Below, piece after piece: positions 1,893 through 64,000 of a stretch of DNA of 64,000 nucleotides (its first letter is position 1; every line of letters begins with the position of its first letter). The notes below the pieces were generated by a model. The model was not told where the DNA came from. It worked only from the letters and a program-made list of their open reading frames with translations, and made no database searches. The DNA is from an uncultured Paracoccaceae bacterium (lineage in GTDB: Bacteria; Pseudomonadota; Alphaproteobacteria; Rhodobacterales; Rhodobacteraceae). The position numbers were made by a program, and so were the translations under genes. The DNA is taken from assembly GCA_913043905.1 (NCBI GenBank), contig CAJWNQ010000003.1, positions 1 to 64,000 of the forward strand. The letters run 5' to 3'.

Positions 1893-2207
1893 CTTAACTT
1901 ACTGGTAGCCATAATTTATTATAATTATGCACATTGTTCCTTCATCTGTATGATATTTAAAATTTTTAATTGTGGTGATTTGCAAAATGACACTGAGTGA
2001 AAATAAATACTAAATTATTCTGCAACCTCTATGGCAAAGTTAATCCTTTTGTTTAATAATCTTATTATAAAATCATTTATCTGTCACTAGATAAACTTTG
2101 AATTAGCACTGGAACGATATAAAACGAACATTCGTTGTTGATATTTGATATCTTTTAGTGTTCCATATACTCACATAAAATTTATTTAATCTAGGGAGAG
2201 TTAAATT
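1893..2207. other. Divergent intergenic region
   Basis: A 315-bp AT-rich gap between the minus-strand HAD gene and the plus-strand ABC operon. It contains the palindromic operator-like element annotated separately, followed by TTGATA-type promoter-like sequence. A ribosome site AGGGAGAG lies 6-13 bp before the ATG at 2208. No RNA gene or further ORF was seen. Confidence 0.5.
2123..2143. promoter_or_regulatory. Palindromic DeoR/GlpR-type operator candidate
   Basis: AACGAA-CA-TTCGTT is a perfect 6+6 inverted repeat centred 78 bp before the ABC operon start. The block CGAACATTCGTTGTTGATAT differs by one base from the block upstream of glpD at 63655-63674, and the two have nearly equal distance to their start codons (72 and 70 bp from palindrome end to ATG). 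The half-site CGAACAT also occurs in the known E. coli GlpR operator consensus. Confidence 0.6.
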
Positions 2208-3461
2208 ATGAAGTTAACAAAACGATATCTTTTAAAAACACTTTCAAAAGCTGCTGCAATTGCGTTGTTTTCAACAACGGCAACATTTTCTGTAGCTGAT
2301 GGAATATCAGCAAAGCTTGATGCATGGTTGATGGAGAATTCACTAGGATCGCACGCAACTGGCCAAGAAAACTGGGATGAAATTGTTGCTGCAGCCAAAG
2401 AAGAAGGTGAGGTATCTGTTTACACAGCTTCTGGTAGAATTGCAAAATTAGTTGATCATTTTGAAGCTCTTTACCCTGGAATTAAACTTACCGTTTATGA
2501 TTTAGGCTCAGTTAAGACGATTGAAAAAACGGTACGTGAACAAGATGCAGGTATTTTTACAACTGATGTTATTACAACAGGTAATTCAGGACAGGTGATA
2601 TATGAGCTTTTAGGAAAAAACCGTATTTTTAATTATGTGCCTTCGCATTATGTAGACCGAATTCCTTCGGAAAATCGCGATCCATTACTTGTTCGTGTAA
2701 ATGAAGCTATGGTTTTTTTCTATAATACGGAAGTACATCCAGATGGTGCGCCAATAAGCAATGTTTGGGAATTAACACAAGAAAAATATCGTGGTCGTGT
2801 AGGAATAAAAAACCCAATGTCATCAGGATCTTCACTTATGGGGCTAGCAACGTTAGTTCAAAATCCTGAAGAAATGGCTGCAGCATATAAACGTTTAACT
2901 GGAGAAGATATTATTCTTGGTGATGGCGTGCCTGATGCTGGTTATGAGTTTGTACGCAGAATGTTAGCTAATGATATAGTAATTTATAAGTCAGGATCAA
3001 AATTAGTAGATGCTTCTGGCAAAGCTGGCCAAGATGATGCGCTAATTGTTATGGGAAGTATGACATACATTTCTCGTAATGAATCTAAAGGTAATGTGAA
3101 TGCAATCTTGTCAGACTTAGATCCTGTCTCACGTTTAGTTTTTCCTACCTTTATGTCAATTGGTGCACATGCCCCAAATCCGAACGCAGCAAAGGTTCTG
3201 ATTGCATATCTATTAGGAAGTACAGACATAAATCTAGATACCAAACTTGAGAAACCATACATCGAGGGAGCAAGCTTTGATTTACTTCAGGGATTGGCAC
3301 CATATCACGATGCAGGCTCAGTAAGTCCTCGTAGTGATGTTCCATTGCCTCAAGGTGGAGAAATCTGGGATGAAATGAAGGGTTGGAATGTTTCTGCTAA
3401 ATTTATGTGGGAGCAAGGGCCTAAACTGCGTGATTTTTGGAATATACACGCAAGCCAATAA
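2208..3461 (+). CDS. ABC transporter periplasmic substrate-binding protein (Fbp/AfuA-type)
   Basis: A 417-residue extracellular solute-binding protein with a signal peptide (KAAAIALFSTTATFSVADG, about residues 14-32). The body is of the type often annotated as ferric-iron binding: VSVYTASGRIAKLVDHFEALYPG near residue 68, a Gly/Ser-rich SSGSSLMGLA loop near 205 and YISRNES near 285. Relatives also bind 2-aminoethylphosphonate, polyamines or sugar phosphates (AfuA), so the fold does not fix the substrate. No clear iron-binding Tyr-Tyr pair is evident by eye. First gene of a three-gene importer operon, 12 bp before the ATPase, with a GlpR-like operator upstream. The regulatory link favours a phosphorylated or glycerol-derived substrate; this is inference. 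Confidence 0.85.
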   Translation: MKLTKRYLLKTLSKAAAIALFSTTATFSVADGISAKLDAWLMENSLGSHATGQENWDEIVAAAKEEGEVSVYTASGRIAKLVDHFEALYPGIKLTVYDLGSVKTIEKTVREQDAGIFTTDVITTGNSGQVIYELLGKNRIFNYVPSHYVDRIPSENRDPLLVRVNEAMVFFYNTEVHPDGAPISNVWELTQEKYRGRVGIKNPMSSGSSLMGLATLVQNPEEMAAAYKRLTGEDIILGDGVPDAGYEFVRRMLANDIVIYKSGSKLVDASGKAGQDDALIVMGSMTYISRNESKGNVNAILSDLDPVSRLVFPTFMSIGAHAPNPNAAKVLIAYLLGSTDINLDTKLEKPYIEGASFDLLQGLAPYHDAGSVSPRSDVPLPQGGEIWDEMKGWNVSAKFMWEQGPKLRDFWNIHASQ

Positions 3462-3473
3462 AGGGCGCTTAAA

Positions 3474-4565
3474 ATGGGACAGATACTTCTCGATGGGATC
3501 GTAAAGTCCTATGGTAAAGTGGTCGTGGTGAAAAACCTCGACCTTACCGTCCAGCCGGGTGAATTCCTAACGATACTAGGACCATCCGGATGCGGCAAAA
3601 CTACAACCCTGCGTATGATCGCTGGGTTGGAGGAGCCAGATCAAGGTGCCATTAAACTTAATGATAAAGTGGTTTTTTCGCGTAACAATGGTGTAGTTGT
3701 TCCACCAGAGGCTCGGCATCTTGGGCTGATATTTCAGAGTTATGCTTTGTGGCCACACATGACAGTTGCAAAAAATATTACTCTGGCTTTAAAAGAGCAA
3801 AAAATATCTAAAAGTGAAATTGCCCAGCGATTAGAAAACGCATTGGATATGGTACAGCTCACAGGTTATGCTGAACGATATCCCTCTGAGTTATCAGGTG
3901 GGCAGCAACAAAGGGTTGCGGTAGCTCGATTAATTGCTTTGAGGCCATCCATTTTGCTTATGGATGAACCATTATCTAATCTTGATGCTAAATTACGCAC
4001 AGAGATGCGTGCTAGTTTAAAGCGTTTGCACCGTGATCTTGGAGCCACAACTGTTTATGTTACTCACGACCAAATAGAAGCCTTAACACTTTCTGACCGT
4101 ATTATAATCATGAATGAGGGGCAAATAATGCAAGAAGGATCCCCATATGATATTTATCATCATCCAGCAAATATCTTTGTAGCTGAGTTTATTGGTGATC
4201 CTGGCATCAATTTATTTAAAGGTACTATTTCCAACGGTATGCTTGACTGTGGTGCTATTTCAATTCCTTTACCTACTACTATAGCAAATAGGGGTGGTAA
4301 TTTAATCGCAGGAATAAGACCAGAAAAAATAAAGGTATCTGAAACTGCAAAAAATGGCTGGCAAGAAGTTACAACCGGTATATTACAACCTACTGGTGCT
4401 AATACAATACTTGAGGTTAAAGCGGAAGATATTCCTATAACTTTATTACAAACTGGTTTTATCACATTATCAGAAAATACTCCACTTTGGATTGATTTTG
4501 AGACTGATGCGCTAAGCTTTTTTAATACACAAACGCAAGAAAATTTGCGAAATGAGGTTAGTTAA
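3474..4565 (+). CDS. ABC transporter ATP-binding protein (FbpC/PotA-type)
   Basis: A 363-residue importer ATPase. Walker A is GPSGCGKTT (residue ~36), the signature is LSGGQQQRVAVAR (~140), Walker B is ILLMDEPLSNLD (~160) and the switch histidine sits in VTHDQIEAL (~197). A C-terminal TOBE-like regulatory region (AGIRPEKIKVSE, ~280) follows. It energises import by the adjacent fused permease. It follows the binding protein by 12 bp and overlaps the permease gene by 14 bp, indicating a single operon. Confidence 0.9.
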   Translation: MGQILLDGIVKSYGKVVVVKNLDLTVQPGEFLTILGPSGCGKTTTLRMIAGLEEPDQGAIKLNDKVVFSRNNGVVVPPEARHLGLIFQSYALWPHMTVAKNITLALKEQKISKSEIAQRLENALDMVQLTGYAERYPSELSGGQQQRVAVARLIALRPSILLMDEPLSNLDAKLRTEMRASLKRLHRDLGATTVYVTHDQIEALTLSDRIIIMNEGQIMQEGSPYDIYHHPANIFVAEFIGDPGINLFKGTISNGMLDCGAISIPLPTTIANRGGNLIAGIRPEKIKVSETAKNGWQEVTTGILQPTGANTILEVKAEDIPITLLQTGFITLSENTPLWIDFETDALSFFNTQTQENLRNEVS

Positions 4566-6411
4566 CATAATGATAAAAGCACCTATAGGTAGTGGGAAGC
4601 CTGCATTTTGGTCTGTGCAAAATATTTCTTATCAGGCCTATAGGTTGAAAACTCGACCTGAACTGATTATTGGTGTTTTGGCGCTTTGTTTTCTAAGTTT
4701 TGTGGTGCTGGTACCATTATTGCAAATTATCCAAGATGCATTTACGTTCCAAAGCTATGATCTTTCCTATGAACCTGACGGTGTCGTGGGTAGTTTTACA
4801 TTATTCCATATTGATCGAGTGTTTAATCAACCTATTTCAACAGCACTATTCTATAAACCATTGCTTAACAGTCTTAAGATGGGGTTTGCGGTTACAGCTA
4901 TTGCATTGGTCGTTGGTTTTAGCCTTGCGTGGTTAATGGTTAGAACAAATGTACATTTTAAAGGCGTTTTTGGTGCAATGTTAGTGTTTCCATATATGAT
5001 GCCTTCATGGGTAATGGCTATTGCCTGGCTTAGTTTGTTTAAAAATGACCGCATCGGTGGATCAGAAGGGTTACTTACTTATTTGACCGGTATCCAAGCT
5101 CCAGATTGGGTTGCATACGGAATTTTTCCAATCGTTATTACTCTTGCGTTACATTATTATGCTTATGCATATTTACTGATATCAGGTGCTTTGGCGACAG
5201 TTGATAGTGAGCTTGAGGAGGCTGGAGCCACCAGTGGAATGGGTAAGTGGAAGAGAATTCGCGTTATCACCATGCCTTTGCTGATGCCAGCAATAGGTTC
5301 AGCTATTGTGCTAACATTTATTCGTATTTTGGGAACATTTGGTACACCTGCATTGTTAGGATTACCAGTACGGTTTTTTACTTTTTCTACACAAATTTAT
5401 GCCTCAATAAACGCGCGTAACCAAGGTGATGCATTCGTTCTGGCTTTAGTCTTGATCGTTTTGGCAATTTCTTTTATTTGGATTAATAGTCGCATCATTG
5501 GTGTCCGCAAGAGCTATGTAACTATGACAGGAAAAGGCTTTCGAAAAAGTGAAAGTGATCTTGGAAAAATGCGCTGGCCTATAACAATTTTAGTTATTTT
5601 ATTTTTATGTATGACGGTAGCATTACCACTAATTTTGCTCCTGTGGGAATCTTTAACTCTTATTCCTGGAAATTATAGTATCTCAAATTTAACAACTTAT
5701 TTCTGGAACGGGAAAGGTAATATTAATTTGGCTTATGGGGAACCTGGCATAATTCATAATAAGGGAATTCTTGAAGCATTATTTAATTCAATAAAACTTG
5801 GCTTTGCTGCTGCCTTATTTAATGGAGTACTTGGCCTTTTGGTAGGGTATGCCGTTGTTCGTGGGCGCGGTGCACGTTTGTCCAAATGGTTGGAAGCTAT
5901 TGCTTTTGCGCCATACATATTCCCGTCAATTGCATTAGGAGCAATTTATATTGGCATGTTCTCAACCAATATTGGGCCTGTTCCTGCACTTTATGGCACA
6001 TTTACTATTCTTGTATTGATCACGGTGATCAAAAACTTGCCCTTTACTTCACGTACTGGAATTGCTGCAATTCTGCAAATACACCAATCGCTAGAGGAAG
6101 CTGCTCGTGTACAGGGTATCGGCTGGTTTAGGCGCATGTTTCGTATTATCATTCCTTTGTCTATGAGCGGGCTAGTTGCAGGAATGTTGTTAACGTTTAT
6201 TACCGCAATGCGAGAATTATCTCTAATTATTTTACTTATTTCACCTGGCAACATGGTTTTAACGGGCTTAATATTTAGTTACCAGGAAATGGATATGTCG
6301 CAGCATTCAAGTGCTGTGACCTTAATGCTAGTTCTTCTTATTATTGTAATTAGTGTAATTGTTCGTTTGATTACACGCAGTGCTGGAGTTGGGCGATTAA
6401 ATGTAACGTAG
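4552..6411 (+). CDS. ABC transporter permease, two-domain fused (FbpB/AfuB-type)
   Basis: A 619-residue integral membrane protein containing two tandem BPD_transp_1 domains, about 12 membrane segments. Two EAA loops that contact the ATPase are visible: EEAGATSGMGKWKRIRVITM (~residue 223) and EEAARVQGIGWFRRMFRIII (~515). Fused permeases of this length are typical of Fbp, AfuB and phosphonate (AepW/PhnU-V) systems. It overlaps the ATPase gene by 14 bp; an internal ATG at 4570 (MIKAPIGSG) is an alternative start. It forms the channel for the substrate delivered by the protein encoded at 2208. Confidence 0.9.
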   Translation: MRLVNIMIKAPIGSGKPAFWSVQNISYQAYRLKTRPELIIGVLALCFLSFVVLVPLLQIIQDAFTFQSYDLSYEPDGVVGSFTLFHIDRVFNQPISTALFYKPLLNSLKMGFAVTAIALVVGFSLAWLMVRTNVHFKGVFGAMLVFPYMMPSWVMAIAWLSLFKNDRIGGSEGLLTYLTGIQAPDWVAYGIFPIVITLALHYYAYAYLLISGALATVDSELEEAGATSGMGKWKRIRVITMPLLMPAIGSAIVLTFIRILGTFGTPALLGLPVRFFTFSTQIYASINARNQGDAFVLALVLIVLAISFIWINSRIIGVRKSYVTMTGKGFRKSESDLGKMRWPITILVILFLCMTVALPLILLLWESLTLIPGNYSISNLTTYFWNGKGNINLAYGEPGIIHNKGILEALFNSIKLGFAAALFNGVLGLLVGYAVVRGRGARLSKWLEAIAFAPYIFPSIALGAIYIGMFSTNIGPVPALYGTFTILVLITVIKNLPFTSRTGIAAILQIHQSLEEAARVQGIGWFRRMFRIIIPLSMSGLVAGMLLTFITAMRELSLIILLISPGNMVLTGLIFSYQEMDMSQHSSAVTLMLVLLIIVISVIVRLITRSAGVGRLNVT

Positions 6412-8153: not shown

Positions 8154-8541
8154 AAGATAATTCCTGTAATTCTAATTAATTTGAATAGTTTTATTAGTTT
8201 AGACCTGCAATTATTCCATTAATATTTTGGGCAGAACTAACAGTATTAATAACAAATGCAACTATGTTGAGGCCATGTCTTCTATGGAAACGCCATCGTT
8301 TATGAAAGCCTTAATTCTAATTATTAATATAGAATTACTTATAGCTGATTTGTTGCGAGTAATTGATTTTTTAAAAAATAGAGTTACTTAAATCATTCCT
8401 ATTAAATACTTCCCCCCAAAAATCACTTTATGTATTTAAGTATCCTTAATAAAAAATCTAAGAAACTACACATACCTATAAAATAATACGATAATTCCAA
8501 TGTCTTATTTTTTAGCTATTATCTCAAAAAAGGCATTAATT
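8154..8541. other. Intergenic gap between divergent genes
   Basis: About 390 bp between the TauE-like gene and the likely start of the HAD-like gene. It is AT-rich, with a C-tract (ttcccccca) near 8411. A stop-free minus-strand stretch at about 8194-8322 lacks a start codon and was not called. No RNA gene or palindrome stands out. Confidence 0.35.
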
Positions 8542-9204
8542 ATGACTGTCAAAGCAATTATCTTTGGATCTATTGGTACCCTAGTTGAAACATCTGAGCT
8601 TCAACATCAGGCGTTTAACGACACATTTATTGAAGCTGGCCTTGACTGGAATTGGAGCACAAATACTTATAAGAGCTTTTTAAAGAATTCAGGTGGGCGT
8701 CAAAGAATTCAAAATTATGCAACTAAATTAGGTGTTAAAATAGATGCAAAAAGATTACATTTACGAAAGACAGAAATTTTTGATGCTTTAATGGCTAAAA
8801 AAAGAATGCTTCTTCGGCCTGGTGTTTTTAATGTCATTAATTACGCTTTGAGTTCTGATATAAAGCTAGGTTTTGCAACTTCAACATCTGAATCAAACAT
8901 TAATACTGTTTTTTCTGCTGTTAGTAATCAATTAAAATACTCTGACTTTGATTTTGTTGGTAACGACGCAATGGTATCCAACCCTAAACCTAGTCCAGAT
9001 ATCTACGAAAAAGCTATGTCCTGTCTGCAACTAGATGCACAAGACTGTATTGCAATAGAGGATACGGCTATTAGCATGAAGGCTGCATTGGCCGCTAATC
9101 TCCAATGCGTTGCATTTCCTGGCGCGTTTGCACTGAAAAGTGATTTTTCTGGTGCCACAACCGTCACTGAGCATTTATCTTCTGATTATTTTAAAAACTA
9201 CTAA
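8542..9204 (+). CDS. CbbY/PGMB-like HAD protein with altered motif I
   Basis: A HAD subfamily IA protein of 220 residues if started at the internal ATG at 8542 (MTVKAIIFGSIGTL), which matches the usual family N-terminus; the ORF track start at 8500 adds 14 unlikely residues. The cap is helical. Motif II is FATSTSESN (~115), the lysine motif NPKPSPDIYEKAM (~150) and motif III AIEDTAISMKAA (~175). Motif I, normally FDxDGTL, is FGSIGTL: both the nucleophile Asp and the acid/base Asp are missing. I recall similar FGSIGTL proteins in Rhodobacterales, so this looks family-wide rather than a local mutation. Likely a non-phosphatase or binding role; single gene. Confidence 0.8.
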   Translation: MTVKAIIFGSIGTLVETSELQHQAFNDTFIEAGLDWNWSTNTYKSFLKNSGGRQRIQNYATKLGVKIDAKRLHLRKTEIFDALMAKKRMLLRPGVFNVINYALSSDIKLGFATSTSESNINTVFSAVSNQLKYSDFDFVGNDAMVSNPKPSPDIYEKAMSCLQLDAQDCIAIEDTAISMKAALAANLQCVAFPGAFALKSDFSGATTVTEHLSSDYFKNY

Positions 9205-31129: not shown

Positions 31130-32112
31130 TAATGAGCTCCTGAGCCAGTCGGTATGTACTTACCACCCTCACCACGGTAATCTGCTACAGCAGCCATGAG
31201 GTAGCTTACAAATTGAATCATCATTGATACTGCAAAGATACCTAAAAAGCCTGCCATCATATATTTTAAATATAAACCAAATCCTGATTGTGTAGTTTCA
31301 AAGTTTAAGATTGGACTATTAATAATGGACGTCTTCTGTGCCATTCCAGTTAAAATAATCATCCAACATAATGTTATTCCTAAAGAAATGGTTCCAATTG
31401 CATTCACCCTTCCTTTAGATTTTTCTTTAAGACCTGCATAGACGATATCAACTCGGACATGGCCTTCTTCTAATAATGTATGGGCAGAAGCAAATAAAAA
31501 TAGTGCTCCATACCAGAAGCGAACAAGGTCTGACATGAATGCTTGTTCGTAAGAAAAAATAAAGCGAAAAATTACGATCAACAATTCACCAATAAGAATA
31601 AGTAGTGCTAACCAATGAAAGCCTAGGGTTTTCGTTCGAGTTGCTAATAAAACTCCAATTATCATTAATGGAAAGTGTACATAGGGCCCGCGAAATTGTG
31701 ATCTCCCAAGGTTCTTACCCATGGTTTCGCCTATAATATTATTCAACATATCTTCTACTCGAAGAAAGGCAATAATACTATCAACACAGCCTAGCAACAC
31801 AACCATCCAAAAAGCTGCACGTATTACAAAGGCATTCATATTGGAAATACGCTTGCTGTCTTGGCGTAGTGTTGTTTTGGGGCTATTAAATGTAAGTGTT
31901 ACTGCAAGAAAAACTGCTGCCGGATATAACATCATTTGCAGCACGCCAATGGTGCCACTTTGAAAAGATGCTCCTGGCAAGCCTCCCCAAAACGTAGCAA
32001 AGTTATTAAATAAATATGCGAACATAACCCATAAATTTGACCAACCAAGTGATCTTATGAACAACGGATTTGAAAACAAACCATTTTCACTTTGGACTGT
32101 TGTCGAAGCCAT
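31129..32112 (-). CDS. TRAP transporter small permease DctQ
   Basis: A 327-residue membrane protein, longer than typical four-helix DctQ (~160-200). It has extra N-terminal segments (GWSNLWVMFAYLFNNFATFWGG) and the DctQ core near the C-terminal half (FLFASAHTLLEEGHVRVDIVYAGL, ~205-230), which is the family signature. It scaffolds the DctM channel. AAGGA lies 6 bp before the ATG. An intra-operon hairpin separates it from dctP. Confidence 0.88.
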   Translation of the reverse strand: MASTTVQSENGLFSNPLFIRSLGWSNLWVMFAYLFNNFATFWGGLPGASFQSGTIGVLQMMLYPAAVFLAVTLTFNSPKTTLRQDSKRISNMNAFVIRAAFWMVVLLGCVDSIIAFLRVEDMLNNIIGETMGKNLGRSQFRGPYVHFPLMIIGVLLATRTKTLGFHWLALLILIGELLIVIFRFIFSYEQAFMSDLVRFWYGALFLFASAHTLLEEGHVRVDIVYAGLKEKSKGRVNAIGTISLGITLCWMIILTGMAQKTSIINSPILNFETTQSGFGLYLKYMMAGFLGIFAVSMMIQFVSYLMAAVADYRGEGGKYIPTGSGAH

Positions 32113-62727: not shown

Positions 62728-63486
62728 TTAAATATTAATGATTTCAGTTTTCCAAGTATTACATTTATCTAAAAGTTTATTGGGTAATTTTATATCTGTA
62801 AAAAGATAGTTTACATCGGCAAGAGAGCAAATTGTTAATGGCGCTTTGCGCTTAAACTTATAGAAATCAGCTACTATTATAACTTGTCGAGATCTTTGAA
62901 TTGCGGTGCTGGTTACTATGATTTCCTGTCCATCAAAATCAAGAATATCGCCGTCTGTATCGATTGCTGAGCATCCTAATATTGAGAAATCAAATTTAAA
63001 TTGTTTTACCATGTCGACTGTTAGGCTGCCTAAAATTCCCCCATCAGTACGGCGAAGTACACCTCCTGCTAAAATAATTTCACAACTATGATTGTTTGAT
63101 AAGATATTAGCAATATTGAGGTTATTTGTTACTATTAGAAGATTGTCGTGATCCAATAGCTCTCTGGCAACTGCCTCAGTAGTTGTTCCAATGTTCATAA
63201 AGACTGATGCACCGTTAGGTATTTTTTGAGCACATTTTATTGCGATTGCTTTTTTACCACTTTTATTAAGCTGGCGGCGTTTTTCATATAAAATATTTAT
63301 AACACCTGAAGGAATAACGGCTCCACCATGTACCCGCTCCAATCGGCCCATCTCGGCTAGCTCTGAAAGATCTCGTCTAATTGTTTGAACTGTAACATTA
63401 TATAGATCAGCTAGTGCATCTACTGTTACTTTACCCTCTTTACGAGCAATTTTTAGTATATCTTTATGTCTAAAATTTGAAGCCAT
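62728..63486 (-). CDS. glpR: DeoR-family regulator, GlpR-like
   Basis: A 252-residue repressor: DeoR HTH (FRHKDILKIARKEGKVTVDALADLYNVTVQTIRRDLSELAEMGRLERVHGGAV, ~5-57) and a sugar-phosphate-binding DeoRC domain (MNIGTTTEAVARELLDHDNLLIVTNNLNIANIL, ~96-128; ILAGGVLRRTDGGILG). It is divergent from glpD, the arrangement usual for GlpR, whose inducer is glycerol-3-phosphate. It presumably binds the palindrome at 63653-63666 and may also bind the near-identical site at 2123. Confidence 0.85.
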   Translation of the reverse strand: MASNFRHKDILKIARKEGKVTVDALADLYNVTVQTIRRDLSELAEMGRLERVHGGAVIPSGVINILYEKRRQLNKSGKKAIAIKCAQKIPNGASVFMNIGTTTEAVARELLDHDNLLIVTNNLNIANILSNNHSCEIILAGGVLRRTDGGILGSLTVDMVKQFKFDFSILGCSAIDTDGDILDFDGQEIIVTSTAIQRSRQVIIVADFYKFKRKAPLTICSLADVNYLFTDIKLPNKLLDKCNTWKTEIINI

Positions 63487-63652
63487 ATTTTAATTCCTGA
63501 TGAGCAAATTTTAAATGGTGTAAATGAATTTAACAATTATTTTATTAGTTGTAGCTTCAAATATTTGATATTTTAAACATAAAAAAATAAATGTTAAGTC
63601 TATATTAAATAAAAAAACAATCTATCTAGTAAATTTATTCAAAGCGAAAATA

Positions 63653-63674
63653 ATCGAACATTCGTTATTGATAT
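63653..63674. promoter_or_regulatory. GlpR-type operator candidate upstream of glpD
   Basis: ATCGAA-CA-TTCGTT is a near-perfect inverted repeat ending 70 bp before the glpD ATG. The 20-bp block CGAACATTCGTTATTGATAT is identical at 19 positions to the one upstream of the ABC operon at 2208. It contains CGAACAT, the half-site of the E. coli GlpR operator. Confidence 0.7.
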
Positions 63675-63735: not shown

Positions 63736-64000
63736 ATGACAAAATCCGATGACACTAATACTATAGACCTATTCGTTATTGGTGGTGGCATAAATGGATG
63801 TGGAATTGCTCGTGATGCTGCTGGTCGTGGATTAAGTGTAGAACTTGCCGAGATGAACGACTTGGCGTCAGCCACGTCTTCAGCATCCACTAAGCTTTTC
63901 CATGGTGGATTACGTTACCTTGAATATTGGGAAATTCGCCTAGTACGTGAAGCACTTATTGAACGTGAAACACTTTTAAAAGCAATGCCTCATATATCAT
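63736..64000 (+). CDS. glpD: Glycerol-3-phosphate dehydrogenase GlpD (5' part, cut by window end)
   Basis: An open frame from ATG 63736 to the window end gives 88 residues that match the GlpD N-terminus: FVIGGGINGCGIARDAAGRG (FAD-binding, ~13-32), then SSASTKLFHGGLRYLEYW and VREALIERETLLKAMPH. The enzyme oxidises glycerol-3-phosphate to dihydroxyacetone phosphate and feeds electrons to quinone at the inner membrane. GGTAGGAT precedes the ATG. It is divergent from the GlpR-like regulator. Confidence 0.93.
   Translation, partial: MTKSDDTNTIDLFVIGGGINGCGIARDAAGRGLSVELAEMNDLASATSSASTKLFHGGLRYLEYWEIRLVREALIERETLLKAMPHIS

Follow-up and report, generated by a model that had tools for sequence, protein, structure and literature searches.

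A tandem GlpR-type operator shared by glpD and an Fbp-like importer suggests uptake of phosphorylated organic compounds in small-genome marine bacteria

An ABC importer of a family that is usually labelled as iron uptake is encoded at 2208–6411 of the window (the whole stretch of 64 000 nt that we analysed, positions 1–64000 of contig 3 of a draft genome of 2.02 Mb in 83 contigs, about 93% complete). Its hosts are a group of small-genome marine bacteria. The locus raises two questions: why its promoter carries the same sequence block as the promoter of glpD, a gene of glycerol-3-phosphate metabolism, and what the importer carries. The explanation that we favour, at a probability of about 0.78 for the whole, is that a tandem operator of GlpR governs at least three operons and that the importer takes up phosphorylated organic compounds. 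What computation showed directly is an operator that the promoters have in common, conserved in relatives, matching a family-wide GlpR motif and missing where no GlpR was detected, together with phosphatase genes next to the importer.

The block upstream of the importer, CGAACATTCGTTGTTGATAT at 2125–2144, and that upstream of glpD, CGAACATTCGTTATTGATAT at 63655–63674, are identical in 19 of 20 positions. A search of the window with up to three mismatches found the block at these two promoters only; the expectation from shuffled sequence was 0.01, and none of 100 shuffles contained two copies. An earlier, sequence-only reading of the window had pointed out this match, and we confirm it together with its coordinates at glpD; at the importer the reading had given 2123–2143, which needs correction. 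It had also counted 72 and 70 bp to the respective ATG, while from the end of the 20-mer we counted 63 bp (importer) and 61 bp (glpD); the distances from the 10-bp palindrome CGAA-CA-TTCG, 73 and 71 bp, nearly fit. When the search was extended to the whole genome with the same tolerance, a third promoter copy, CGAACATTCGTTCTTGCTAT, with two differences, was seen 44 bp upstream of phnD. A fourth match, with three mismatches, is located inside dxs and is attributed to chance.

In every aligned copy of the 20-mer the tetramer CGAW stands six bases upstream of CGAACATT, thus the upstream flank matters as well. The operator is a direct repeat, CGAW-N6-CGAACATT, with a 10-bp period, and a promoter-like TTGAT element abuts it at fixed spacing; the consensus of sixteen aligned sites from five genomes is cGAAa.aaa.CGAACATTCgTT.TTGaT. 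The palindrome, pointed out in the sequence-only reading for both sites, is indeed present in all three sites of the host genome, but we rejected it as the operator because it is not conserved among the aligned sites, where the direct repeat is: alpha proteobacterium HTCC2255 has CGAACATTCATT instead at phnD and CGAACATTCTTT at a TAXI gene. Scattering of the site over many unrelated promoters was not what we saw. The pattern CGAWN6CGAACATT has exactly three perfect matches in the 2.02 Mb genome, all of them at promoters (importer, glpD and phnD). With one mismatch allowed there were 12 matches, about as many as for a reversed-pattern control (15), and these were discarded as chance. We place the candidate GlpR operator of the importer operon, CGATATAAAACGAACATT, at 2115–2132 (+ strand), a perfect pattern match at a conserved position, and that of glpD, CGAAAATAATCGAACATT, at 63645–63662 (+). 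The E. coli GlpR operator half-site is CGAACAT, and the identical heptamer is found here.

Conservation of the site was followed in related genomes. A scan of the genome collection for the binding protein would place the window near an uncultured Amylibacter MAG (100% identity in this protein) and HTCC2255 (94%). Three importer loci of relatives (L107, L108 and L109) carry the operator with unchanged spacing to the start codon and one mismatch each, and sites at importer, glpD and phnD are all present in HTCC2255 and in the genomes of L107 and L109; in the genome of L111 the glpD and phnD sites are present and the importer promoter falls off the contig. The site between glpR and glpD is conserved in six genomes (G013, G055, G150, G151, G152 and G154), and a family search located the operator in two further genera, in the region from which glpR and glpD diverge; across the family, CGAACATT sites occur at glpR-glpD even in genera without the importer. 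In HTCC2255 and the genome of L109 the same operator precedes a gene for a TAXI-family TRAP binding protein. A TAXI-TRAP gene with a GlpR-type operator is divergent from a GDSL-hydrolase gene in HTCC2255 and Water_Bin34 (L150, L151). Upstream of the importer, conservation of the site is confined to one group of close relatives: no operator was found there in Litoreibacter or in the more distant genomes compared. Two genomes, G137 and G019, have the importer without the operator, and in neither was a GlpR orthologue detected at E ≤ 1e-60. Among the genomes compared, CGAAN6CGAACATT stands before the importer only where GlpR is present.

A motif learned outside this clade led to the same repeat. 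An EM search of the glpR upstream regions of 27 genomes (about 55–62% GlpR identity, the HTCC2255 clade left out) yielded TTTTCGTTTTTGTTCGTTTT, i.e. AAAACGAACAAAAACGAAAA, and 26 of the 27 training regions had a match scoring at least 13.6, some of them weak. Applied to the window, the resulting PWM ranked the glpD site first (23.5) and the importer site third (13.8); a match at 31561 (14.6), which scores above the importer site, is within coding sequence and was set aside. In three relatives the importer site was the best of its own locus (16.8, 19.6 and 18.5), the phnD sites scored from 12.9 to 23.8, and the TAXI-TRAP sites scored 20.0 and 23.1. In Markov-simulated sequence scores of at least 14 arose about 0.4 times per 64 kb, and a score of 18 never arose in 20 trials. 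The score of 13.8 is low; the case for the window's importer site rests on its conservation and on its sharing with glpD and phnD. Strong matches were also seen inside permease coding sequences of two relatives (L111:2956 and L108:9156); they are absent from the window's top sites and are probably due to chance.

The operon under this operator encodes a periplasmic substrate-binding protein of 417 aa (2208–3461, + strand; SBP_bac_8 by Pfam), an ATP-binding subunit similar to UgpC, PotA and PhnT2 (3474–4565, +) and a fused permease with two BPD_transp_1 stretches and the architecture of PhnU2/AepW or FbpB (4552–6411, +), the last two assigned by Pfam and NCBIfam. All NCBIfam matches stay under their cut-offs: 22 of 393 bits for PhnS2, 341 of 458 for PhnT2 and 160 of 593 for PhnU2. 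For the permease and for the binding protein, the latter with a weak match, the curated models that come nearest describe 2-aminoethylphosphonate importers, and at this level another label is therefore closer than iron. The best PDB sequence matches, though weak, are the 7f6e group named ‘iron ABC transporter, periplasmic iron-binding protein’.

Could the importer serve 2-aminoethylphosphonate or another phosphonate, as a relative of AepXVW with a phosphonatase-like HAD enzyme beside it? The sub-threshold matches to all three Phn models speak for it, as does the fact that AepXVW likewise consists of genes for a binding protein, an ATPase and a permease (PMC8316502). Nevertheless we consider a phosphonate cargo unlikely. 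Among phosphonate-degradation genes the search covered PhnJ and PhnW: the C-P lyase gene PhnJ was not detected in the window genome or its clade, and for PhnW only weak aminotransferase matches were seen, none over the cut-off; the adjoining HAD proteins belong to class IIA, control of the glpD type is a poor fit for a phosphonate, and regulation and gene neighbours differ from those of AepXVW.

A ferric-iron importer, with GlpR control incidental or tuning the iron supply of respiratory enzymes, is very unlikely in our view. The names of the low-similarity PDB matches speak for it; the nearest curated models and the phosphatase neighbours speak against it. FbpA binds iron via three tyrosines, two of them adjacent (PMC10182148). 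In an alignment of 15 orthologous binding proteins a Tyr-Tyr pair is absent from 13, including the window protein, and none is conserved across the alignment (the other two rows have a lineage-specific YY); there is no invariant histidine among the 15 either, which argues against iron as the cargo. A conserved iron site, which the sequence-only reading had named as evidence against its view, was not indicated by this alignment. Segments that are invariant are rich in Ser and Gly: S75-G76-R77, T124-G125-N126-S127-G128, S206-G207-S208 and K261-S262-G263-S264-K265. The AlphaFold model of the binding protein, computed with 15 sequences, had a mean pLDDT of 39.9 and was kept out of fold searches.

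The neighbours of the importer also bear on its cargo. Divergent from the operon is a gene for a HAD-IIA phosphatase of the NagD type (1053–1892, − strand; TIGR01459, 155.7 bits, cut-off 103.75), and a divergent HAD-IIA gene accompanies the importer in HTCC2255, Litoreibacter and G137 as well, in G137 along with a NadN-type nucleotidase gene. Elsewhere the neighbour is a HAD-IIB phosphatase (L112), a downstream gene of the histidine phosphatase family (L119, L120 and L121) or a divergent dual-specificity-phosphatase-like gene (L117 and L118), which has the HCxxxxxR motif and scores 32.1 bits in Pfam, just under the cut-off of 33.5. Importer orthologues thus adjoin phosphatases of four unrelated superfamilies. 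This argument is by association; at three loci (L113, L114 and L116) no phosphatase neighbour was found, and one contig (L115) is too short to judge. A HAD-family phosphatase-like ORF is also present at 8500–9204 of the window, a few genes downstream of the importer.

The switch held in common with glpD and the repeated adjacency to phosphatases make it most likely that the importer moves phosphorylated organic compounds rather than iron, and residue pattern, phosphatase neighbours and the lack of a detected PhnJ and of a PhnW match over the cut-off together favour a phosphate ester. We regard an organophosphate cargo as probable; the same suggestion in the sequence-only reading is in this way supported indirectly. 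A narrower assignment, to glycerol-3-phosphate or a glyceryl phosphate, is rather doubtful. Since a UgpBAEC-type system is encoded in the genome as well, uptake of glycerol-3-phosphate need not fall to this importer, and glycerol-3-phosphate is only one candidate ligand.

The best-supported owner of the shared operator is the DeoR-family protein encoded at 62728–63486 (− strand), next to glpD, the aerobic glycerol-3-phosphate dehydrogenase gene (63736–64000, + strand, continuing past the window and followed by glpK). Its Pfam matches are above cut-off (PF08220, HTH_DeoR, 64.8 bits; PF00455, DeoRC, 156.2 bits), and the curated GlpR model PRK10906 is its best NCBIfam match, under the cut-off at 246 of 331 bits; we call it GlpR because its gene adjoins glpD, an arrangement that relatives retain, and because of the operator. 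Orthologues were found in 91 of 150 genomes of the family. The host genome encodes only one other DeoRC protein, DeoR2, which heads a ugpC-ugpB-ugpA-ugpE operon with a calcineurin-type phosphodiesterase gene, and deoR2 lies 2–3 kb from the phnD operon in HTCC2255 and G154. One could therefore suppose that the shared site belongs to DeoR2 and that DeoR-family operators are merely alike. We find this highly improbable, as the region upstream of deoR2 has an operator of its own, AAAACAACAAAACAACAAA with the inverted copy TTTGTTGTTTTGTTGTTTT, invariant in four genomes and without CGAACATT (L186:8200-8560 on contig C12 of the host, L184, L185 and L188), as the glpR-glpD site is family-wide, and as importer orthologues without detected GlpR lack the site. 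The earlier assignment of both promoters to this one regulator therefore gained support from the glpR-glpD site, the motif of the 27 regions and the differing DeoR2 operator.

The 20-mer at 2125–2144 (+), as located by pattern search, combines the second operator repeat with the start of the core promoter (TTGAT). A shared promoter-like stretch with TTGATATTTGATATCTTTTAGTGTTCCATATA lies at 2136–2170 (+), a putative promoter recognised when the 16 sites of the five genomes and the G137 sequence were aligned. The importer of G137 keeps this core, TTATTGAT...TTAGTATTC, and lacks CGAACATTC, which is the reason to read the 20-mer as operator half plus promoter element and TTGAT...TTAGTRTTC as core promoter. 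That the match reflects a shared strong promoter only, with CGAACATT there by coincidence, is scarcely credible in spite of this persistence of TTGAT...TTAGTRTTC in G137, since CGAAN6CGAACATT stands upstream of that promoter, equals the family glpR motif and precedes the importer only in GlpR-bearing genomes among those compared.

GlpR would thus control at least three unlinked operons, glpD, the importer and phnD-phnC-phnE-phnE with a HAD-IIA gene, through CGAW-N6-CGAACATT abutting the −35-like TTGAT of a shared promoter module. By analogy with the GlpR proteins of E. coli and Pseudomonas, it probably binds this operator as a repressor and would be released as glycerol-3-phosphate accumulates; in Pseudomonas GlpR repression is lifted by glycerol-3-phosphate (PMC6922529). 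The cargo, if glycerol-3-phosphate, could enter central metabolism via GlpD; alternatively, the HAD phosphatase encoded next to the importer may remove its phosphate.

As in E. coli and Pseudomonas, GlpR is a DeoR-family protein encoded beside glpD. Unlike in those regulons, the operator here is a direct repeat of 10-bp period, and the putative targets extend to an Fbp-like importer, a PhnCDE-type importer and, in two relatives, a TAXI-TRAP gene. The Ugp-type glycerol-3-phosphate system of the same genome, with its phosphodiesterase, is headed by DeoR2 and has the AACAACAAAACAACAAA operator, not a GlpR-type one. Searches of the open-licence literature turned up no description of such importers under GlpR control.

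AfuABC, an importer of hexose and heptose phosphates, offers a parallel: it too comprises an Fbp-like binding protein, an ATPase and a permease, was first taken as an iron system and carries a phosphate ester, the likely reading here; the likeness is one of description. Sugar binding by AfuA of Actinobacillus and Citrobacter depends on His205-Asp206, and the pocket also includes Glu229, Ser37 and Thr150 (PMC4546632). The importer family here has no invariant histidine among the 15 orthologues; it is under a GlpR-type operator, and the passages of PMC4546632 consulted mention no GlpR control of AfuABC. The pyridoxal-phosphate importer P5PA of Actinobacillus (PMC8427247) is similar, again by description, in being binding-protein-dependent with a phosphate-ester ligand; ligand and context differ.

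Sequence is a poor guide to the function of Fbp/Afu/PhnS-type importers, which annotations list under iron or phosphonate uptake. The present family, near in sequence to both, spans Rhodobacteraceae, SAR324 and MAGs labelled Binatia, Chloroflexi and Deltaproteobacteria, and the conserved regulatory tie to glycerol-3-phosphate metabolism provides a testable assignment for one marine importer family. It is conceivable, and we propose it tentatively, that the family serves, so far unrecognised, to take up glyceryl phosphates or similar phosphate esters, and that GlpR of the HTCC2255 group gathers it with a PhnCDE-type importer (no C-P lyase detected) and, in some members, a TAXI-TRAP importer into one organophosphate-scavenging regulon. 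The analysis also separates two DeoR-family operators, those of GlpR and of the ugp-linked DeoR2, in one small genome.

The regulatory tie to glycerol-3-phosphate metabolism also suggests that the PhnD-type system of the third operon, in which the HAD-IIA gene follows phnD-phnC-phnE-phnE (L006:5608-9949), need not serve phosphonates either; in these genomes, where no PhnJ was found, its binding protein may have another ligand. A paralogous importer operon is present on contig C14 of the host genome (L045:2728-8485). Its binding protein is 36% identical, and genes for an RpiR-family regulator and a HAD-family protein adjoin it, which suggests yet another phosphorylated substrate.
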